Assembly (NCBI GenBank): GCA_004299305.1
Contig: SCPZ01000014.1
Span: 1 to 64,000 of the forward strand
Direction: 5' to 3'
Source of the DNA: Methylobacter sp.
GTDB lineage: Bacteria > Pseudomonadota > Gammaproteobacteria > Methylococcales > Methylomonadaceae
Length of the DNA: 64,000 nucleotides
The notes below the pieces were generated by a model that had not been told where the DNA came from, did not search any database, and worked only from the letters and a program-made list of their open reading frames with translations. The position numbers and the translations under genes are program-made. Every line of letters begins with the position of its first letter. The first letter of the stretch is position 1. Of this stretch, positions 4,754 through 58,335 are shown one piece after another.

Positions 4754-5428
4754 GCAACCCGGCGGGTTGCCAGCCATTAGCCGGGGGTTAAGCGTAGCGA
4801 CACCCCCGGATGGTGCGAAAAAAAGAACCGCGACCCCGGCGGGGTCGCAGAAATACTACACAGTTAAGCGAAGCTCACTATGGCATCTACCTACCTAAGC
4901 CTGCACTATCATATCGTGTTTGGAACTAAAAACTGTGCGCCCTGCATAGATGCAAAGTGGCGTCCTCGGCTTTACGATTATCTTGGTGGAATTATCCACA
5001 GACGAGGCGGATTTTCAAAACGAATTGGTGGAATTGATGATCATGTCCATTTGCTGGTGCCTTTAAAAGCCACGCACAACCTTGCGGATCTTATGCGGGA
5101 GTTGAAAAAAGCCTCTTCCGTGTGGGTTCATGACACATTAGGGGAAAAGCAATTTGCATGGCAAGAAGGCTATGCTGCTTTTACCGTTAGCGCATCCGCG
5201 CTGGACACAGTGGCGAAATATATCGCCCATCAGGAACAACACCATCAAGTGAAATCGTTTCGGGAGGAATTGGTTGAAATGTTGGAAAAATCCGGTGTCG
5301 ATTATAACCCGGATTATTTGTAGCCTGGATTGCTGCGACCCCGTCGGGGTCAGAGCCTCTATCCGCACAATCCGGGGGTGTCGCTACGCTCAACCCCCAG
5401 CTAATATCTTGAACCCCTTTGGGGGTTC
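4754..5428 (+). mobile_element. IS200/IS605-type element or transposase with REP-like palindromic flanks
   Basis: The transposase gene is bracketed by two copies of one 32-bp sequence in opposite orientation: 4779-4810 and 5371-5402, which share the core GTAGCGACACCCCCGGA. Additional GC hairpins lie at 4754-4770 and 4830-4848 on the left and 5337-5351 and 5411-5428 on the right. Subterminal hairpins are what TnpA_Y1 enzymes recognise; the inverted pairing is also like a REP/BIME arrangement around a RAYT. Exact ends cannot be set without an empty site. Confidence 0.6.
4880..5323 (+). CDS. tnpA: IS200/IS605-family HUH transposase (TnpA/Y1)
   Basis: 147 residues, the usual IS200 TnpA length. 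The HUH motif is visible as DHVHLL near residue 55-60. The catalytic tyrosine is probably in VAKYIAHQEQHH near residue 114. The N-terminus (YHIVFGTKN) and the WQEGYAAFTVS segment are typical of the family. The enzyme cuts and joins single-stranded DNA at hairpins; the flanking palindromes are its likely substrates. No accessory TnpB/IscB gene is present. The reading frame is intact. Confidence 0.9.
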   Translation: MASTYLSLHYHIVFGTKNCAPCIDAKWRPRLYDYLGGIIHRRGGFSKRIGGIDDHVHLLVPLKATHNLADLMRELKKASSVWVHDTLGEKQFAWQEGYAAFTVSASALDTVAKYIAHQEQHHQVKSFREELVEMLEKSGVDYNPDYL

Positions 5429-5438
5429 CAAATGCTTA

Positions 5439-5608
5439 GGAATGCGCATGAAATAACTTAGGCATTTTTTTCTCCCCACCCCGGCCCTCTCGGCAACTGC
5501 TCCTGCGTCGCCTAAAGCGCCTACTTTTGGTGCTCTACCTCCCTGCATCCATGCAAGTCGTCCAGCAGGAGAGGGAGCTAGTTGTCGACGTTATTTCGTG
5601 CGTATTCC
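5439..5608. repeat. MITE-like element with 19-bp terminal inverted repeats and a nested 70-bp insert
   Basis: 5439-5457 (GGAATGCGCATGAAATAAC) and 5590-5608 (GTTATTTCGTGCGTATTCC) are inverted repeats matching at 17 of 19 positions. The interior carries the dispersed roughly 70-bp unit in reverse orientation (5490-5560), flanked by the CTCTC / GAGAG sequence also seen at other copies. A related TIR-bounded copy is at 41194-41444. Confidence 0.65.
5490..5560 (-). repeat. Dispersed 70-bp unit, copy 1
   Basis: 71 bp, reverse orientation. It shares a core containing AGTAGGCGCTTTAGGCGA, an AGGTAGAGCACC block and the TGCATGGATGCA palindrome with copies at 35342-35411, 39438-39507 and 41242-41311. 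Confidence 0.8.
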
Positions 5609-26350: not shown

Positions 26351-26360
26351 AGGTTCGATC

Positions 26361-26430
26361 AAGGTTCAAGGTTCAAGGTTCAAGGTTCAAGGTTCAAGGT
26401 TCAAGGTTCAAGGTTCAAGGTTCAAGGTTC
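26361..26430. repeat. Ten perfect tandem copies of a heptanucleotide (AAGGTTC)
   Basis: Exactly 70 bp, 10 x 7, with no mismatch; the next unit is degenerate. It abuts the tldD start, occupying the position of the ribosome-binding site and between tldD and bamC (38 bp from the bamC stop). Perfect conservation implies recent slippage or selection. Confidence 0.97.
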
Positions 26431-26468
26431 AAGATTGAAAGTATAAAACGACATCCCTTTCACCTCAG

Positions 26469-34157: not shown

Positions 34158-34729
34158 TTGAAAATCTCTATGCCTTGCCTGGATAAAAGTTCTGCGGTTT
34201 CAAACAACGGTAAACCGACCACGCCGGAAAAACTGCCGCTTATCGACTCGACAAATGCGCCGCCTATGCCTTGAATCGCATAACTACCGGCTTTATCGAC
34301 CGGTTCGCCGCTTTGCCAGTAGGCCGCTATTTCGCGTTCCGTCAACGTCCTGAAACTTACCTCGGTAATGCTGACCGCCTGACCGTGCTCCCGCCCTCTC
34401 AGCGAAATTGCACTATAAACCCGGTGCATTTTACCGGACAACAGTCTTAACATGGCAAGCGCATCCTCCCGATCTTTGGGTTTGCCCATAATCAGGTCGC
34501 CCAAAACCACGGCGGTATCTGCCGCCAAAACCGGTAAGCTGTCGCCCAGTTGCGCCATACAGGCCGCAGATTTTTCGGCGGCCAGCCGCTGCACATAGTC
34601 CAGCGGCGCTTCATTGGCTAACGGCGTTTCATCAAGATCGACCGGATTAACCCTGTAACTAACCTTAATTTGGTCCAGCAATTCCATACGGCGGGGCGAA
34701 GCGGAGGCAAGAATAATCTGGGCAGTCAT
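34154..34729 (-). CDS. maf: Maf-family nucleotide pyrophosphatase (YhdE-like)
   Basis: 191 residues from the ATG at 34729; upstream sequence in frame belongs to rlmH. The start ILASASPRRMELL is the substrate-binding loop of Maf proteins, and PVLAADTAVVL carries the catalytic Asp. SYAIQGIGGAFVESISGSFSGVVGLP-type C-terminal segment (split here) matches the dTTP/UTP pyrophosphatase group. It hydrolyses non-canonical or modified NTPs and influences septation. It overlaps rlmH by one base and rng by four. Confidence 0.95.
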   Translation of the reverse strand: MTAQIILASASPRRMELLDQIKVSYRVNPVDLDETPLANEAPLDYVQRLAAEKSAACMAQLGDSLPVLAADTAVVLGDLIMGKPKDREDALAMLRLLSGKMHRVYSAISLRGREHGQAVSITEVSFRTLTEREIAAYWQSGEPVDKAGSYAIQGIGGAFVESISGSFSGVVGLPLFETAELLSRQGIEIFK

Positions 34730-35196
34730 TAGCGGTGGTAGGGATGATTGTGGAGGATGCTCCAGGCGCGATAAAGCTGTTCGGCGACCACGATACGCAC
34801 CAACGGATGAGGAAAGGTCAGCTTGGACAAGCTCCATGATTCCCGAGCCAGTTGCTTGACCGAATCAGCCAGCCCTTCCGGCCCGCCGATCAATAACGAG
34901 ACATGCTGGCCGCTTTCCTGCCAGCGCTGCATTGCTTGTGCCAATTCGGGCGTCGTCCAGGGTTTGCCGGGTATATCCAAGGTTACAATATGCGTGCCTT
35001 GAGGGATTGCCGCGATCATCCGCTCGCCTTCCTCTTTGACGATCCTGGCGACATCGCTGTTTTTGGTTCGCTTGCCCGGCGCAATTTCCTTAAGCGCCAG
35101 CTCGCATTCACGGGGCAGGCGTTTGGCATATTCATCGTAGCCCTGCTGCACCCAGCCCGGCATACGGTTTCCTACTGAAATCAGATTTATTTGCAT
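34729..35196 (-). CDS. rlmH: 23S rRNA pseudouridine-1915 N3-methyltransferase RlmH
   Basis: 155 residues from the ATG at 35196, the normal RlmH length. The frame extends to 35430, but that part reads through a MITE-like repeat and is not the gene. SPOUT-fold motifs: [16 protein letters not shown] at the start, [14 protein letters not shown] in the middle and the knot segment LLIGGPEGL...[14 protein letters not shown] near the end. It methylates position 1915 in the ribosomal A-site helix. First gene of the rlmH-maf-rng unit. Confidence 0.96.
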
Positions 35197-35284
35197 GCGG
35201 TGCAGGATACAGAGAACAGGCTTGTGATGCAATCTGGCCTGAGCGTATATTCCGGTATATTTCCATGAATCAAAGACTGCTTTT

Positions 35285-35514
35285 AGGCGATTGACAAGAA
35301 TAAATATACCCAAATGGCGCAGGATTTTTGTTCGTCTACAACGACTGCATGGATGCAGGAGGTAGAGCACCAACAGTAGGCGCTTTAGGCGACGCATGGA
35401 GCAGTTGCCGAGGCGTAAAAATGGGCGCATAGCGAGCTATGCAACCATTTTTGCAACGCAGGAGACGGGCAAAAAGACCAGTCAGTTGGGTATGTTTTTC
35501 GCAGGAAATCGCCT
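35285..35514. repeat. MITE-like palindromic repeat, interrupted copy (filled site)
   Basis: 230 bp running from AGGCGATT to AATCGCCT, with the inner palindrome GCATAGCGAGCTATGC. It is the reverse complement of the uninterrupted 161-bp copy at 54363-54523, but with a 69-70-bp insertion at 35342-35411. The length difference (69 bp) fits a single insertion. Confidence 0.85.
35342..35411 (+). repeat. Dispersed 70-bp unit, copy 2 (nested in MITE)
   Basis: It begins CGACTGCATGGATGCAGG and ends CAGTTGCCGA, splitting the MITE between TTCGTCT(A/G)CAA and GGCGTAAAA. Both MITE halves continue normally on each side. Confidence 0.85.
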
Positions 35515-35618
35515 TAACTCGTCTTCAATCGCCAACACTGACTGACAACAGTCAGGACATCAAGTATGGCGGCTTTCGTTCGAGACTGTTCTGAAAACAT
35601 CCGCTTTATAAACAGATT

Positions 35619-36668
35619 TCAGTGCTCATGTTGGTGGTGAGTATCCGGAAAATGAGGATGAAAGTGAGTCATTGGTATATGCCGATGCAGGTGCCGGTGC
35701 TTCGTACCCGGCTCGACGGGAATATCATGCCGATGCCGGTGATGGTCGTCATGAATGTGTTCATGATCGTGCTCTAAACCTTTATGCAGATGGAGATGGT
35801 CATGCCGCTCAGTCAAGTGCAAGCCAATACCCAAACCCATCAATGCCCCGGCGACAACCAGTCTCAGCGTTAACGGCTCGCCCATTGCCAACGCCAGTAT
35901 CGCGCCAATGAACGGAGCGACAGAGAAGTAAGCTCCAGTACGGGCCGTTCCAAGATGACGCAAGCCAACAACGAATAACGCCAAACTCACGCCATAGGCG
36001 AGAAACCCAACGACCAACGCCCCGACAAGACTCGATAGCGGAGGAACAGTTGCGCCTACAACGAAGGCCAAGGCCAGATTGACCGAACCGGCAACCAGCC
36101 CTTTCACCATGGCAATCCATGTTGCATCGGATAGCGACACCTTGCGGGTCAGGTTGTTATCGATAGCCCACGCGAAACACGCACCAACGACGGCCAGCAC
36201 AGGCCAAGCCCCGGCAAAACGCGCTTCACCCGGCCAACTTAAGACAACGGCCCCGGCCAGAATGGCAATCATGCCCAGAGCAATGCGGCGGTCGAAGTTT
36301 TCCTTGAAGACAAACCACGCCAACAGCGCCGTAAACACGCCTTCGGCATTCAGCAGCAGAGATGCTCCCGATGCGGGCATCCCGGTCAGCCCGAACATCA
36401 ACAGTATCGGGCCGATGATTCCTCCCGCTACAATTGCACCAACAAACCACGGCACCTCGTGGCGGGGCAACTTGACTGAAGGCGCTTTGCCAAAATACCT
36501 GTACAAGTTAAGCCCGAAACCGGCCCCCAAATACAGCAGTCCAGCCAGCAGCCACGGGTTAACCGCATCCAACAGCAATTTTGCCAGCGGAGTACCTGCC
36601 CCAAATAAAGTGGCGGCACCAAGCGCAGCCGGGACACCTGCTTGGCGCAGTCTATTTATTAACTTCAT
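35619..36668 (-). CDS. EamA/DMT-family exporter with histidine-rich C-terminal tail
   Basis: 349 residues from the ATG at 36668, which has GGGAGG 7 bp upstream (a frame start at 36686 is less likely). Ten hydrophobic helices in two EamA halves fill residues about 10-290. The C-terminal 60 residues hold more than 20 histidines in HDH/HEH/HRH runs. DMT carriers export small molecules; the His-rich tail suggests binding of Zn, Ni, Co or Cu, as in metal transporters (inference). It is monocistronic. Confidence 0.8.
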   Translation of the reverse strand: MKLINRLRQAGVPAALGAATLFGAGTPLAKLLLDAVNPWLLAGLLYLGAGFGLNLYRYFGKAPSVKLPRHEVPWFVGAIVAGGIIGPILLMFGLTGMPASGASLLLNAEGVFTALLAWFVFKENFDRRIALGMIAILAGAVVLSWPGEARFAGAWPVLAVVGACFAWAIDNNLTRKVSLSDATWIAMVKGLVAGSVNLALAFVVGATVPPLSSLVGALVVGFLAYGVSLALFVVGLRHLGTARTGAYFSVAPFIGAILALAMGEPLTLRLVVAGALMGLGIGLHLTERHDHLHLHKGLEHDHEHIHDDHHRHRHDIPVEPGTKHRHLHRHIPMTHFHPHFPDTHHQHEH

Positions 36669-36795
36669 CAAACACACCTCCCGCATTAAAGGCTGGCAGT
36701 ATAAAGCATATTGGCATGTTGTATCCCGGTGAGATTGTCATTCAATAGTCATTCTAAACAAGGATAATGGCTGGTTTTGCGAGCCCGGAAAAGTT

Positions 36796-36900
36796 ATGCC
36801 CGATAAACAATCAACGGCTTCTCACTCATCACCCGAAAACATCATTGCTGTGTTGAGCCTGCTTGGTATTGGCGGCTACAGCGTTTTCAAATTCAGTTAA
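36796..36900 (+). CDS. Possible 34-residue small protein
   Basis: ATG to TAA encoding 34 residues: a polar start (MPDKQSTASHSSPEN) followed by a hydrophobic stretch (IIAVLSLLGIGGYSVF). It could be a small membrane protein or the remnant of a lost gene. GGAAAAG lies a few bases upstream, a weak ribosome-binding site. No family recognised. Confidence 0.25.
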   Translation: MPDKQSTASHSSPENIIAVLSLLGIGGYSVFKFS

Positions 36901-36909
36901 TTACTAAAA

Positions 36910-37069
36910 GAGCTACGATACTTATTGAAACCATGTGCAGGAGTGCAAGCTTCGCCTAAAGCGCCTACTTTCGGTGCTTGCCAGTGCAGGCGAAGCCTGC
37001 ACTCCAGCGACTATGATAACGACATAGCTTTTTAATGGTTAGCAATTAATTTAAATTGAAAACGCTGTA
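36910..37069 (+). repeat. 160-bp direct repeat, copy A
   Basis: It runs from GAGCTACGAT to GAAAACGCTGTA and is nearly identical to 38794-38956. The two copies flank the 37553-38764 lipoprotein gene. Each carries the 26-bp core of the dispersed 70-bp unit in reverse orientation (36953-36978), embedded in a GGAGTGCAGGC / GCCTGCACT palindrome. Confidence 0.9.
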
Positions 37070-37480
37070 TCCGGTGCTGCATTATGCGCTGGATATTGGA
37101 CATGAAGACTATACATTGTCGCTGAATGCGGCTTTGACCTCGGCGGTTGCAGATATTTATCACGGGCAATGCGGATGCCGTCAGTTGCACATAGAAAATT
37201 GGCTGATGAGCTGACCGATATAACTACGGAGCTGGTTAATATCGGCGACATCTTGTTGATACTGCGACGAAATCCGCCCCGTTGACGACACAGTGCTGGA
37301 GGGTTCCAGCACCATGGACGCATGGCAAGTCGGCAGATGCGGTGATCATGGATCAGTTCATTGTTAAAAGTCGATGAGCTGTTTCATATCGGCGAGAGGA
37401 TGCGTAAAATTGCGCTGCAAAGGGCGGTATTGAATGCATTGAGGGCTGCTATCCCACCGAAAACACTTTCGGATTTTTAA
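37065..37480 (+). pseudogene. Decayed reading frame after repeat copy A
   Basis: Protein-like segments in different frames follow one another: LYPVLHYALDIGHEDYTLS, then DELTDITTELVNIGDILL, then VDELFHIGERMRKIALQ ending in TAA at 37478-37480. Codon choice looks coding, but stops and frame changes break it up. Origin unknown; it may be a remnant truncated by the repeat at its 5' side. Confidence 0.3.
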
Positions 37481-37552
37481 AAAAGCCCAGTTTTGCCCTA
37501 TTTCAATTCGAAACAAAATAGACCCGATATTTATCCTGCTTACAGAAACGAC

Positions 37553-38764
37553 ATGAACTTCAATACCACCCAGTCCCCAGTATTTCCAAAATCCGCTGCA
37601 AGGTGGCTGATAATACTGATTTTATGCGCCATGCAGGGTTGCTTTTCACCGATGGCGCTGGATCATGCCGTCATCGAATACGACAAGACGACGACAGACA
37701 TTCTGTCCCAACTGATACTATTGAATATTGCCCGCTCCCATCAGCATCAACCCATGCATTTTACCGGCGTTTCCAATATTGCCGCGACGTTTAACTTTCA
37801 ATTGAATGCCGGAGCGACACCGGCGCTTACCGGCGAGAGCGGCTCGTTATTGGCGCCGGTGTTTGGCGGCACGATTTCCGAAAACCCGACCATCAGCATC
37901 GTCCCGATAGAAGGCGAGGAATTTACCCGCCGTTTACTGACCCCGTTTCAGGAAAACAAACTGACCATGCTGTTGCGGCAAGGCGTTGATCTCGACTTGT
38001 TGCTGCGCTTGTTAGCCGGTGAGTTGCGGCTTAACGGCAGCAAACCCAGCGTCACTTATCTAAACAAGCCTAGCGACAAAGAGGGCTATCAGTTGTTTCG
38101 GCAAGTCGTGCTGCATCTATCGTCAATTCAGGATAAGCGCAAACTGTTTGTCGAACCGTTAATGTTTGACCAACATTGGACTTTACCAGCCGAATCGATG
38201 ACCGCTGATCAACTGGCTACGTTGCAAAAAAACTACAAAATCGATTACCAAGCCGAAACTAAGCAAGTTCTATTAACCAAGCGGGTGATCGGACGCATCC
38301 TGTTGACCAATTACGATCCAACTACGCTGAGCAACGAGGAACGTATCCGTTTGCATGAAGAAGCCGATAAAGGCGCGGATAATGATGTCACCGTCGATAT
38401 TCGCCCTGGTTATCCAGGCGGTGAGTGGCCGATACATGGGGTGTTTCGTTTACGCAGCTTTCATAATGTGCTGAATTTTATCGGCCAAGCCATCAGCGAC
38501 GACCCGGAATTCGCTGTGTCTAAACACCCGCAAACACCCCAGGTCAGCGAGAATCCGGTCAATACCATGGGTTTGCTGGTCAGCGAGGACAAACCGGCGG
38601 CGGCCGACATCAGCGTACGCTTTGGCGATTGGTATTACGCGCTGAAACCGGAAACCGGTTATCAATGGAATCGCGAAGGCTTTCGGCTACTCTGCCAAAT
38701 TTTTCAAATGACCATGACCGATCTGGCCAGACAGGGCGCTCCGGAGATTACCATTTCTAAATAA
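37553..38764 (+). CDS. Uncharacterised lipoprotein
   Basis: 403 residues from the ATG at 37553; an upstream frame start at 37493 would put 20 extra residues before the signal peptide. The signal peptide ends in a lipobox-like A-M-Q-G-C (Cys about 30). The mature protein is mixed alpha/beta, with DYDKTTTDILSQLILLNIARSHQHQPMHFTGVSNIAATFNFQL-like N-terminal region (read in short pieces) and no recognised domain. I do not recognise a function. It is bracketed by 160-bp direct repeats, which suggests it arrived or can be lost as a unit. Confidence 0.7.
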   Translation: MNFNTTQSPVFPKSAARWLIILILCAMQGCFSPMALDHAVIEYDKTTTDILSQLILLNIARSHQHQPMHFTGVSNIAATFNFQLNAGATPALTGESGSLLAPVFGGTISENPTISIVPIEGEEFTRRLLTPFQENKLTMLLRQGVDLDLLLRLLAGELRLNGSKPSVTYLNKPSDKEGYQLFRQVVLHLSSIQDKRKLFVEPLMFDQHWTLPAESMTADQLATLQKNYKIDYQAETKQVLLTKRVIGRILLTNYDPTTLSNEERIRLHEEADKGADNDVTVDIRPGYPGGEWPIHGVFRLRSFHNVLNFIGQAISDDPEFAVSKHPQTPQVSENPVNTMGLLVSEDKPAAADISVRFGDWYYALKPETGYQWNREGFRLLCQIFQMTMTDLARQGAPEITISK

Positions 38765-38793
38765 TGAGTAAACATTGTGCGGCATCAGCACCC

Positions 38794-38956
38794 GAGCTAC
38801 GATGCTTATTGAAATCATGGGATGCAGGAGTGCAAGCTTCGCCTAAAGCGCCTACTTTCGGTGCTTGCCAGCGAAGGCGAAGCCTGCACTCCTGCGACTA
38901 TGAGAACGACATAGCTTTTTAATTGTTAGCAACTAATTTAAATTGAAAACGCTGTA
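38794..38956 (+). repeat. 160-bp direct repeat, copy B
   Basis: Near-identical partner of 36910-37069 in the same orientation, including the embedded 26-bp core at 38840-38865. It starts 30 bp after the lipoprotein stop. Confidence 0.9.
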
Positions 38957-38977
38957 ACATCCCTTCAAGGGATGTTA
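38955..38977. repeat. 23-bp palindrome, copy 1 of 3
   Basis: TAACATCCCTT-N-AAGGGATGTTA. Other copies, with one or two central changes, are at 41361-41383 and 58259-58281. All three are intergenic. Confidence 0.85.
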
Positions 38978-39085
38978 TCTGTTCAAGTTATTTAGTTTTC
39001 ATTTCATAATAACTTGGCAACAATTTAGTCAACGGTCGTCATCTGTACTGGATTAAAAGTAACTATTCAGACCCCGACCGTATTT

Positions 39086-39118
39086 AGACCTTCCAGGTTT
39101 TTAAAACCTGGAAGGTCT
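39086..39118. repeat. 33-bp palindrome
   Basis: Arms AGACCTTCCAGGTTTT and AAAACCTGGAAGGTCT around one central base, lying in the gene-free 38957-39642 stretch. No downstream T-run, so it is more likely a dispersed palindrome than a terminator. Confidence 0.8.
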
Positions 39119-39437
39119 TAGCGTAACAATATATTTTTCAATAGGCTAATCTAGCCATAAAACTCTAAACAGCCGTTTACTGGCTAAGCCAACCGTAAGG
39201 AGCTAAGGGGACTGAATACTTACGATTAAAAATATACTGCGAGCGGTCACGATTTGCGCTTTTTTGAATCCCCTCCCCCCTCCCGAAAGGCATAACTATC
39301 CACACAACTTTTTTGTATTATAAATACAATGGGTTGCAAGCTAACCTAGCTCCCTCTCCTGTTGGAAAGGGTTGGGGAGAGGAGGACAAAAGCCGCGATC
39401 TGCGCCCGTGTCGAGTATAGCTCCCTCTCCTGTTGGA
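39119..39437. other. Gene-free stretch between palindrome and 70-bp unit
   Basis: No coding sequence. 39356-39385 (CTCCCTCTCCTGTTGG followed by AAAGGGTTGGGG) looks like an empty version of the sequence that carries the 70-bp unit immediately downstream. Confidence 0.4.
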
Positions 39438-39507
39438 CGACTTGCATGAATGCAGGAGGTAGAGCACCAAAAGTAGGCGCTTTAGGCGACGCAGGAGCCG
39501 TTGCCGA
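39438..39507 (+). repeat. Dispersed 70-bp unit, copy 3
   Basis: It begins CGACTTGCATGAATGCAGG and ends CCGTTGCCGA, inserted after CTCCCTCTCCTGTTGGA. The sequence CTCCCTCTCCTGTTGGA is found without the unit 70 bp to the left. Confidence 0.85.
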
Positions 39508-39642
39508 GAGGGATGGGGTGAGCAGAATAAAATACCTAAGGCGCTTTCCTGCTCATTCCTAAATAATAGTGCTTTGATAGAAATGCACGGACTTCACCCC
39601 TGATTGTTATCATCAACCCAACTACTAAGCCATTATTCAGAC

Positions 39643-40974
39643 ATGCAAAAAGATCCAATCGCCAAATATCAGAATAGCCATCAAGCCGTACTTGATCTTT
39701 TAGAAAAGCATAAGCTTATCGCCGAGTTGGTGCATAAGCAGGACATGCCTCACCATGGTCTAGTGGAAACGCTGGTACGCAAAGAGAATATGGCGCGATT
39801 GCAGCAGATTCTTAATCATTTACCTCCCTCGGAAGTCGCTCATATTCTGGAAGCGTTGCCGCCTGAAGATCAATTGCTGATCTGGGCGCATCTGGATGAT
39901 AACCATAAACAACCTATTTTGTTGGAGGCCCCAATTTCCGTACTGCAAATACTGGGTAAACAAGACTACAAGACCGAAAAATCCAGAGTTAAAGTTTTTG
40001 ATTTACGCGAAGACCGCTTGCATGAAATTTCGATCAATACTCCCCAAGATTTGCTTGACTCCAAACCTATTTGGATCGATTTGGTTGCGCCAACGTTTGA
40101 GGATCGCATATGGATCGGCGATACTTTCGGCATAGAACTCCCTGACCCGGATAAATTGAGCGACCTGGAATCCAGCGCCCGGTTCTATGTGGAAGAAAAC
40201 GGTGAAATTCACTTGCATTCGGATTTCCTGCTGGACAAGGATGACGTGTCGCGCAACATCGTCGTTGCTTTTATCCTGTATCAGGATATTTTGTTCTCTA
40301 TTCGCAAAGAAGAGCTTCCGGTCTTCCGGCTTCAGCGTTTACGGGCGCTGAGTCAGCCTAACTATGTTTCCGACTCAAGGGATATGTTGCTGGACCTTTA
40401 CGCCGCCAATGCCGAGTATTCGGCTAACGCATTGGAGGAGGTTTATCTTGCTTTGGAAGTAATTGGCAATCATGTACTTAGCAAACAAATCAGCGATGAA
40501 GAGGCTGCCACAATCTTAAATGACATTACCAATGAAGAGGATCTGAATGGGCGGATCCGCAGGAATGTGATGGATACGCGTCGCGCAGTTTCGTTTCTGA
40601 TGCGCAGCAAGATTCTTGCAAGAAACCAACTGGAGGATTCCCAACAGATTCTGCGCGATATTGAATCGCTGGATGGGCACACTGCATTCCTGTTCGACAA
40701 GATCAATTTTTTGATGGATGCTGCGGTAGGTTTCATCAATATCAACCAGAATAAGGTGGTTAAGAGACTGACAGTCACCAGTGTTGTGTTTATGCCGCTT
40801 AATGTATTGGCCGGCATCGGCGGCATGTCCGAATTCTCAATGATGACCCAAGGCGTAGCTTGGCCTATCTCCTACAGTCTTTTTACCGTAGGCTTGGTCG
40901 TGGTCGGCTGGCTTACTTATGCTCTTTTACGGTTTTTTGAAAATCGCGAACACGGTAAAGTAGGAAAACGTTAA
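39643..40974 (+). CDS. CorA-family divalent cation transporter with MgtE-N-like N-terminal domain
   Basis: 443 residues from the ATG at 39643 (a TTG at 39604 is the alternative). Residues about 25-90 (ENMARLQQILNHLPPSEVAH, ILEALPPEDQLLIW) have the Leu-Pro-Pro superhelical pattern of the MgtE intracellular N domain. The rest is CorA: a long alpha/beta cytoplasmic domain, the stalk helix and two C-terminal transmembrane helices. The signature after TM1 reads GGMSEF instead of the canonical YGMNF, so the GMN filter is changed to GMS. Probably a Mg/Co/Zn or other cation channel with altered selectivity (inference). Confidence 0.85.
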   Translation: MQKDPIAKYQNSHQAVLDLLEKHKLIAELVHKQDMPHHGLVETLVRKENMARLQQILNHLPPSEVAHILEALPPEDQLLIWAHLDDNHKQPILLEAPISVLQILGKQDYKTEKSRVKVFDLREDRLHEISINTPQDLLDSKPIWIDLVAPTFEDRIWIGDTFGIELPDPDKLSDLESSARFYVEENGEIHLHSDFLLDKDDVSRNIVVAFILYQDILFSIRKEELPVFRLQRLRALSQPNYVSDSRDMLLDLYAANAEYSANALEEVYLALEVIGNHVLSKQISDEEAATILNDITNEEDLNGRIRRNVMDTRRAVSFLMRSKILARNQLEDSQQILRDIESLDGHTAFLFDKINFLMDAAVGFININQNKVVKRLTVTSVVFMPLNVLAGIGGMSEFSMMTQGVAWPISYSLFTVGLVVVGWLTYALLRFFENREHGKVGKR

Positions 40975-41241
40975 CTGCGTGTTTTAGTTTTCCTCCAACT
41001 GGTCTGTAGCCCCCCCCTAAGTCGAGGTTATGAGTATAACGGTGATTGGCAATAGCCTAATAAAACGATTTACCTAGTACTCAGTCAATCCTATTTTGAC
41101 GAGTAAAAGTAGATCCGTTCCCTGAGCTTGTCATGAGCTTGTCAAATGGGATGCGCGGATTTACTCTGAGCTAAACGGTTTTTACACGACATAGGAATGC
41201 GCACGAAATAACCTAGACAACTAGCTCCCTCTCCTGCTGGA

Positions 41242-41311
41242 CAACTTGCATGGATGCAGGAGGTAGAGCACCAAAAGTAGGCGCTTTAAGCGACGCAGGA
41301 GCAGTTGCCGA
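41242..41311 (+). repeat. Dispersed 70-bp unit, copy 4
   Basis: It begins CAACTTGCATGGATGCAGG and ends CAGTTGCCGA, in the same CTCCCTCTCCTG / GAGAGGG context as copies 1 and 3. Confidence 0.85.
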
Positions 41312-41360
41312 GAGGGCCAGGGTGAGGAGAATAAAACGCATAAGGAATGACTTGAACAGA

Positions 41361-41383
41361 TAACATCCCTTGGAGGGATGTTA
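41361..41383. repeat. 23-bp palindrome, copy 2 of 3
   Basis: TAACATCCCTTGGAGGGATGTTA variant of the palindrome at 38955 and 58259; it lies inside the 251-bp element. Confidence 0.8.
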
Positions 41384-41453
41384 TCTGTAAATCTGTTGTA
41401 TGAGTTATTTAATTTTCATCCCTAAGTTATTTCATACGCATTCCAATCAATAT

Positions 41454-41481
41454 TGACTGAGTACTAGCTAGTACTCAGTCA
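41454..41481. terminator. 28-bp perfect palindrome followed by T-run
   Basis: TGACTGAGTACTAG is immediately followed by its reverse complement, then ATTTTTT. It consists of the right terminal repeat of the 394-bp element next to an inverted half copy. It could form a cruciform or act as a terminator on the plus strand. Confidence 0.5.
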
Positions 41482-41531
41482 TTTTTTAACCTGTTTATAG
41501 GTATTTTTATACTATATTAAAAACAGCGAGC

Positions 41532-41557
41532 ATAAAAAAAACCGCCGTTAAGCGGTT
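41532..41557 (-). terminator. Intrinsic terminator, minus strand
   Basis: Read on the minus strand: AACCGC, loop TTAACG, GCGGTT, followed by a T-run. It lies about 110 bp outside the left end of the integrative element and has no adjacent minus-strand gene, so it may be left over from a lost gene. Confidence 0.55.
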
Positions 41558-41648
41558 GATTTATTAATACTTTCTTTGGTGCGGGCTCTATCACAATATG
41601 CCCTGTATATAGCATTTTTAAAGGATTATTCTTGTTTTTAATTTACAT

Positions 41649-41675
41649 GTTACTGTAAAAGTTACTGCATTTCGT
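41649..41675. other. Left attachment-site candidate of the integrative element
   Basis: TGCATTTCGT (41666-41675) repeats the 10-mer at 47770-47779. It is preceded by GTTACTGTAAAAGTTACTGC, a near copy of the repeats between the integrase and the right end (47721-47741). The left end therefore carries integrase-arm-like sequence on its outer side. Confidence 0.5.
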
Positions 41676-42215
41676 CAGCGTGACTCTGTTTTGTTGCAAA
41701 AAATCCAGCACATCATTAAAGCCGCTTTTTTATTTTTGCTACGTGAAAAATGCCCGCAACAACTGCCGGAATTTTCAGCCATAAAATGTTACCCTGCCTT
41801 AATCTCTACATCATCACCCAACTTTGCATCTATAGTAGTGGTGCTTTTCCTTATGTATTCATCAATGAACAACATAAACAACGAAAAGCCCTATTGTGGA
41901 CTGTCGTTAAAGCTCTCATTTCCGCTCAATGACTCAAAAATAGCAATACCAAGCTTTAATGTTGGGCTAAGGTACTCCGCGAGGGTTTGCCGTCATGCGT
42001 ACAACTATAAGGCTTTCAGATTTTATCTACCAACTTTCTCAGTTCAATTTTGGTAAGTATCTATATTAATAGCTGATTTATTGGCTTAAACGCTACCCGG
42101 AGCTAGGGAGGCAATCTTTAGTTTTAATTGCACCAATTTCTAAAGTTATTTAATATAAATCAACTCTTTCTAAGTGTTGTGCCTGTATCCTTTAATTGCT
42201 AAAATTTAATCTGAG
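41676..42215. other. AT-rich leader region of the integrative element
   Basis: 540 bp. A TTG-initiated frame (41691-42056) exists but has no ribosome-binding site or recognised family. The region may be non-coding, for example an origin or RNA gene; nothing specific can be supported. Confidence 0.35.
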
Positions 42216-54204: not shown

Positions 54205-54700
54205 TTCCTAACAATAATAAAACTCACAGACGCTAATTTTAACGGATTCATTAACTTTATTTAGTTTTTCGACGAAATCCACTGACCTAGGCAATTAAAG
54301 CCATAAAAATACATCATGCTAACTGCCTTAATTTAGCAAAAAAATCAGCCTGTCTAGCATTAAGGCGATTTCCTGCGAAAAATATACCCACCTGACTGGT
54401 CTTTTTGTCCGTCTGCTGCGTTGTAAAAATGGTTGCATAGCTCGCTATGCGCCCATTTTTTACGCCTTGCAGACGAACAAAAATCCTGCGTCATTTGGGT
54501 ATATTTATTCTTGGCAATCGCCTAACAAGACGAATTTTATTGAATTAATCAGCACACTTGTAAATAGAATATTGACTTCGATCGACAAAGAGTTCAGCAT
54601 CAATAATTATAATCCTTCCTCTTATAGGGTTATATTTTAAACCGAAGGCAAAACCACACCCGTTTTTACGGCCCTCACACTAAGTAAAGAGGACATCACC
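54205..54700. other. Intergenic region with MITE-like repeat
   Basis: 496 bp. The middle third is the 161-bp palindromic repeat described separately. The rest shows no gene; an AGAGGA ribosome-binding site for the next gene lies near 54690. Confidence 0.5.
54363..54523. repeat. MITE-like palindromic repeat, uninterrupted copy (empty site)
   Basis: 161 bp between AGGCGATT and AATCGCCT, centred on GCATAGCTCGCTATGC. It is the reverse complement of 35285-35514 minus the 70-bp insertion, so this copy shows the pre-insertion state. Confidence 0.85.
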
Positions 54701-58163: not shown

Positions 58164-58258
58164 TGCAGCATACTGTTTATAACTTGTTTTTATTACCATG
58201 AAGGACATGAAGCCAATACGCTAATATCTTCAAATTTAAAGCGGGACGATTTTACGGA

Positions 58259-58281
58259 TAACATCCCTTGAAGGGATGTTA
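58259..58281. repeat. 23-bp palindrome, copy 3 of 3
   Basis: TAACATCCCTTGAAGGGATGTTA, same family as 38955-38977 and 41361-41383. It lies between the convergent ends of the coiled-coil gene and the GGDEF-EAL gene and may serve as a terminator hairpin. Confidence 0.8.
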
Positions 58282-58335
58282 TCCGTATCATTGACGATGG
58301 AAATTATTTATCTGAAAGTCTATATGACGGTTTAT

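Follow-up and report, generated by a model that had tools for sequence, protein, structure and literature searches.

Introduction

The small dispersed repeats (SDR) of cyanobacteria, reportedly described by Elhai et al. in 2008, are said to measure 21-27 nt, to be dispersed, and to nest both within one another and within repeats of other kinds. SDR are cited in the work on REPINs (PMC3116915), which are inverted REP doublets, miniature and non-autonomous, and thought to be RAYT-dependent. The GTAG REPs and REPtrons (TnpAREP/RAYT, especially group 3) carry the tetranucleotide GTAG (or GTRG) 0-2 nt ahead of a short hairpin with a variable loop and occur in many dispersed copies, mostly in Gammaproteobacteria, with G-T pairs and compensatory changes in stems of 5-13 bp (PMC3733652, PMC8266576). 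Di Nocera et al. described GTAG families and found a few REPs within palindromes (PMC3733652). TnpAREP recognises GTAG together with short hairpins, on one strand only, and with GTAG as its guide cleaves on both the 5′ and the 3′ side of the hairpin; the REP substrates of a Marinomonas enzyme have a TTTA loop and stems of 5 bp (PMC8266576). In the IS200/IS605 group two ends are used, each hairpin having a 5′ guide tetranucleotide; the target is a tetranucleotide, no target duplication arises, and empty sites are clean (guide logic in PMC6006769).

The movement of REPs and of other tiny repeats of bacteria has long been an open question, since exact ends and true empty sites are seldom seen. 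Here we describe such sites, starting from a window of 64,000 nucleotides out of a 4.49-Mb draft genome of Methylobacter sp.; the copy numbers given for this genome derive from searches and from stretches of its sequence.

Results and Discussion

A 70-bp Insert in a Palindromic Repeat

The original prediction, made from the letters of the window, held that a 161-bp palindrome is interrupted by a miniature insert at one position and whole at another (Table 1). Alignment of the arms (35283-35341 and 35417-35517) with 54360-54525 resulted in a 95% match, the empty site reading CAA^GGCG and the filled one holding 70 bp (35342-35411), and the predicted coordinates were correct. The three further copies of the insert were all found, as was the site without insert beside 39438, an unfilled CTCCCTCTCCTGTTGGA at 39350. 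The 161-bp palindrome, which ends in GGCGATT..AATCGCC, is itself a repeat and, compared with 23 congeners, nearly restricted to its own genome or species.

Among the best 30 of the 41 matches to the unit in the genome, 14 lie at the point CAA^GGCG of the 161-bp palindrome, the others being hosted by CCCTCTCC..GGAGAGGG palindromes (GGA^GAGGG), GGGAAC..GTTCCC repeats, and other sequences. Since 14 copies occupy one point of one palindrome, the filled and empty pair counts as one event, and the filled palindrome may stem from a single insertion that was then amplified together with its host.

Additional repeats were noted in the window. A heptamer array (TCAAGGT, approximately ten units) lies at 26359-26435, where a predicted reading frame starts, and a near-perfect 34-nt palindrome, ACAGATAACATCCCTTGGAGGGATGTTATCTGT, is located at 38950-38983, 41356-41389, and 58254-58287.

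For comparison with relatives, a 2-kb window query, in which the unit occupies positions 614-683, was searched against 23 genomes of the genus. Most of them were matched many times, chiefly via the unit. Despite differing flanks, 95 of the 104 short congener matches listed stop at query positions 682-687 and 67 of the 104 begin at 611-615; a further 21 begin at 625, which fits carriers having another first hairpin. Long homologous flanks in all copies, originally named as the sign of old duplications, were not observed: the hosts within the genome are unrelated and the congener matches break off at the ends of the unit, and an origin of the copies by long shared flanks was therefore rejected. 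The proposal of a gene-free unit lacking terminal repeats that inserts into other repeats was borne out. No orthologous empty site was recovered behind the rlmH-like gene: the congeners lack the unit there, and their intergenic region cannot be aligned. An Rfam search of 34700-41700 matched no known RNA family.

The 70-bp unit is composite: a 22-nt core, mobile in its own right, sits inside a 48-nt carrier that is mobile too. What had been predicted as one miniature unit is thus indeed tiny and does insert into other repeats, but it contains a mobile unit that is smaller still. Both the palindrome TGCATGGATGCA and the AGGAGGTAG stretch pointed out within the 70 bp are present, as parts of the carrier. 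The predicted core, AGTAGGCGCTTTAGGCGA, is likewise present and recurrent; it actually makes up nearly all of a distinct 22-nt element, composed of CCAACA, GTAG (35376-35379), G, and the hairpin CGCTTTAGGCG (35381-35391).

Table 1: Position and structure of the repeats and inserts in the window.
Feature	Position	Strand	Remarks
Palindromic host repeat, 161 bp, filled copy	35285..35514	+	Halves 35285-35341 / 35412-35514
161-bp palindromic repeat, empty copy	54363..54523	-	Site CAA^GGCG
Composite unit, 70 bp (carrier + core)	35342..35411	+	41 matches in genome
Carrier, 5′ part	35342..35369	+	CGA, hairpin CTGCATGGATGCAG, GAG, guide-like GTAG (35362-35365), second stem begins
Core, 22 nt, CCAACAGTAGGCGCTTTAGGCG	35370..35391	+	Between GAGCA and ACGCA of carrier
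Carrier, 3′ part	35392..35411	+	Other half of GTAG-side hairpin; terminus GTTGCCGA
Composite unit	5490..5560	-	Host palindrome CCCTCTCC..GAGAGGG; core 5509-5530, minus strand
Composite unit	39438..39507	+	CCCTCTCC..GAGAGGG-type palindrome; core 39467-39488
Composite unit	41242..41311	+	Core 41271-41292, one mismatch
Core without carrier	36953..36974	-	In palindrome GGAGTGCAGGCTTCGCCTGC..GCAAGCA^AAGCTTGCACTCC
Core without carrier	38840..38861	-	Second copy of GGAGTGCAGGCTTCGCCTGC..GCAAGCA^AAGCTTGCACTCC palindrome

Mobility and Target of the 22-nt Core

The 18-mer AGTAGGCGCTTTAGGCGA was detected 6 times in the window with at most one mismatch versus 0 in 100 shuffles, and 103 times in the genome with at most two mismatches versus 0 for the reversed control, excluding a chance origin of the copies.

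The 22-nt core is mobile by itself. Comparison of filled sites with their empty relatives shows that the insertion comprises exactly 22 nt, CCAANAGTAGGCGCTTTAGGCG, and exact empty sites were found in host repeats at GAGCA^ACGC, GCAAGCA^AAGCTTGC, and GGGA^AGC. Outside the carrier the flanks of the core are unrelated, CCAAN standing just before the 18-mer in 91 of the 109 GTDB copies listed. The base to the left of the core is A or G in 202 of 203 copies and the base to the right is A in 199 of 203, part of the sample having been retrieved by a pattern that includes this A. The insertion point reads R|A (purine, A), and no target duplication is seen at the exact empty sites.

When the 22 or 23 nt were removed and the flanks joined, open reading frames ran continuously over the junction. 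Pfam analysis detected restored domains of an IS66 transposase (L040; residues 3-228, junction 200/201), an IS630-type DDE_3 (L080; 140-254, junction 200/201), Zn_Tnp_IS91 (L097; 44-135, junction 100/101), HTH_32 of an integrase-type transposase, under the curated cut-off (L036; 86-138, junction 105/106), and, for a 23-nt form, the tyrosine recombinase domain Phage_integrase (L252; 113-236, junction 167/168). Recognisable motifs also returned, by eye, in an IscB-like (L106) and an IS91-like gene (L188). Since removal of exactly 22-23 nt restores these domains, insertion of the core was clean. All of these genes belong to mobile elements, and a neighbourhood comparison revealed no gene that constantly adjoins the core. 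The core is among the smallest DNA pieces seen to move.

Targeting of hairpin loops by the core was also considered; it exceeded shifted positions (p = 0.02) but not swapped flanks (p = 0.40) and is not claimed.

The piece might have no enzyme of its own and be carried along by palindromes and IS elements, being copied from repeat to repeat through recombination or template switching at hairpins. The concentration of composite copies at one palindrome position (14 of the best 30), the nesting of inserts in repeats, and a few strong hairpin-loop sites would agree with such copying. Nevertheless, we regard it as improbable: identical stretches of 22-23 nt with identical ends occur in many families, in genes and repeats that are unrelated to each other, whereas template switching should yield variable ends and lengths, and the loop preference does not rise above that of swapped flanks.

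Variants and Mutual Nesting

The inner element has the consensus CCAANA-GTAG-G-[CGCY-loop-GGCG] with 22 or 23 nt, the outer element CGA-[hairpin]-GAG-GTAG-A-[GCAAC..GTTGC]-CGA with 47-49 nt. A search of eight genomes with the left end of the core yielded 23-nt relatives alike in left part and stem but differing in the loop; the other matches were chance ones, fused inverted copies, and nested carriers. The form CGCC-TCTA-GGCG is present in dozens of copies in the Methylobacter genome (host ACGGATG^ACACAGAT), CGCC-ATGA-GGCG was found in another genome (G265), and CGCT-CTTA-GGCG, CGCC-TTGA-GGCG, and more were also observed. The loops of the core are TCTA, ATGA, TTTA, CTTA, TTGA, CTGA, and CTCA on a constant stem. 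At three loci (L260, L261, L262) the host flanks are mirrored around a perfect palindrome of 24 bp, CCAAAAGTAGGCGCCTACTTTTGG, which apparently represents two head-to-head copies fused at GCGC.

Dispersed, non-autonomous copies with precise ends are also what one would expect of a MITE-like element, that is, the internally deleted ends of a DDE-type transposon moved in trans by its transposase. However, terminal inverted repeats are missing, none of the exact empty sites exhibits a target duplication, and a longer autonomous element sharing the left end of the core was not found in the eight genomes, the matches to that end being those listed above; we therefore give this origin little credence.

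Apart from one exception, the inner pair of the second carrier hairpin is either C-G (24 distinct copies) or T-A (13 distinct copies); both types occur within one genome, and the significance of this compensatory change is inflated by relatedness. Nesting is mutual. Besides core in carrier, we observed the carrier in the loop of the 23-nt core (TCTA^GGCG) in three cases (L268, L270, L272) and carrier in carrier (GGTA^GAGC) in one (L155), and 15 of the 48 carriers collected are without core (GAGCA^ACGCAGGAGC).

Distribution

With at most one mismatch, the 22-mer was detected in 16 of 369 sampled Gammaproteobacteria, distributed patchily over 12 families, compared with 0 for the reversed control, and the Methylobacter genome was the richest with 90 copies. 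At least 107 stretches of GTDB contigs contain the 18-mer AGTAGGCGCTTTAGGCGA. When genomes of the phylum were sampled, matches besides those in the own genome were limited to three genomes, all of one family outside Gammaproteobacteria, and the few GTDB records of other phyla with the core are metagenome bins that may reflect contamination. Viral contigs contained no exact core match, plasmids yielded merely weak partial matches, none convincing, and E. coli genomes no match.

Proposed Transposition by a Y1 Transposase

Core and carrier are built alike, GTAG being followed by a hairpin after a 1-nt spacer in each. As GTAG with a hairpin is the signature read by TnpAREP, both elements can be read as REP-like, and since target duplications are absent, single-strand transposition of the IS200 type fits. 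We infer, as the best-supported reading and not as proof, that the two nested, non-autonomous hairpins of the 70-bp unit are REP/IS200-like and moved in trans by a Y1/HUH transposase (RAYT or IS200-like), a proposal that we judge to be evenly balanced between right and wrong. The GTAG-bearing strand would fold once single-stranded, and the Y1 (HUH) transposase, acting in trans, would recognise the hairpin with GTAG as guide. Cuts would fall 5′ of the CCAANA linker and immediately 3′ of the hairpin, and the excised piece would be joined at an R|A target. No target would be duplicated on insertion, and sites lacking the element would consist of the flanks simply joined. A single guide and a single hairpin would act for both ends.

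A scan of 49 Y1 loci from 22 genomes, approximately 138 kb of sequence, identified no cognate transposase; a core lay nearby at just 4 of these loci and at none of the other 45. The only locus with a flanking core pair (L173; G000 C1:40727-41391), one of the six Y1 genes of the Methylobacter genome, comprises a RAYT-like gene between inverted GGAGTGCAGGCTTCGCCTGC palindromes, each carrying the 22-nt core. Y1_Tnp was detected in 21 of 21 core-bearing and 35 of 40 core-free genomes (p = 0.15) and does not discriminate between them. The missing cognate gene, the near-universal occurrence of Y1, the 4-bp stem, and a target R|A unlike the reported CT/CA cut of known TnpAREP were all counted against the Y1 reading, as was the hairpin-loop preference that did not exceed its swapped-flank control. 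The support for single-strand action is indirect, with no intermediate seen.

The window itself contains a Y1_Tnp gene (IS200/RAYT-like) at 4880-5323, between 54-nt inverted repeats (GGGGGTGTCGCTACGCT.. at 4764-4817 and 5364-5417) and near the composite unit at 5490-5560.

The chief rival to the Y1 reading is an RNA route, in which a transcript of the hairpin would be copied into nicked or single-stranded targets by a reverse transcriptase (of a group II intron, a retron, or other). RNA-mediated copying has reportedly been suggested for the cyanobacterial SDR elements. The compensatory changes in the carrier, like the G-T (G-U) pairs of the core stem, are consistent with an RNA intermediate, and at two loci (L031, L186) the core lies, by eye, within group II intron-like sequence. 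Group II maturases were somewhat commoner with the core (11/16 versus 16/40), but the difference was not significant (p = 0.08), and two draft genomes with 19 (G353) and 13 copies (G360) were without a detected maturase. Moreover, target duplication is absent, there is no 5′ truncation series, and both ends are sharp. We consider this route unlikely.

The lone 22-nt guide and hairpin could represent a complete transposition substrate with both ends in one, and the elements, shorter than any known transposon end pair, could build nested palindromes by mutual insertion; we put this forward tentatively, with less than even confidence.

Comparison with Known Small Repeats

Of the repeats described so far, REPs and the cyanobacterial SDR come closest. 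Apart from stem length, the features of GTAG REPs given above recur in core and carrier, and the carrier stem, with 5 bp plus 2, lies within the REP range. Nevertheless, the core stem has only 4 bp (one G-T in the TTTA type), a fixed stretch of 6 nt or approximately 20 nt located 5′ of GTAG is part of the inserted unit, and one sequence extends over many families. Furthermore, no adjoining cognate RAYT was found for the core. The core resembles REPINs in being miniature and non-autonomous, but it is a singlet, and most copies stand singly. Inverted doublets are not predominant, the exact core sites listed in the Methylobacter genome being single and a few inverted pairs occurring in other genomes. 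With IS200/IS605 it shares the lack of target duplication, the hairpin with a 5′ guide tetranucleotide, and the clean empty sites; it differs in its 22-48 nt, in having no gene or TnpA, in using one guide-hairpin rather than two ends, and in the target R|A. By their reported description, SDR are nearest in size and nesting, and the core, with 22/23 nt, exact empty sites, and mutual nesting, fits the pattern of an SDR-like mobile repeat, but they belong to another phylum. The wider, patchy spread, the base-level insertion inside transposase genes, and the GTAG-hairpin form set the core apart from them. No mention of the core sequence was found in the literature searched.

Conclusions

New here are the size together with insertion in genes proven at base level, the nesting of the elements in one another, and the spread of a near-invariant 22-mer over many families. 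Several unrelated hosts allow the ends of the core, its target, and the absence of duplication to be read with base precision, and its sequence barely varies across families. It provides a defined 22-nt substrate for candidate transposases as well as a lower size limit of mobile DNA.
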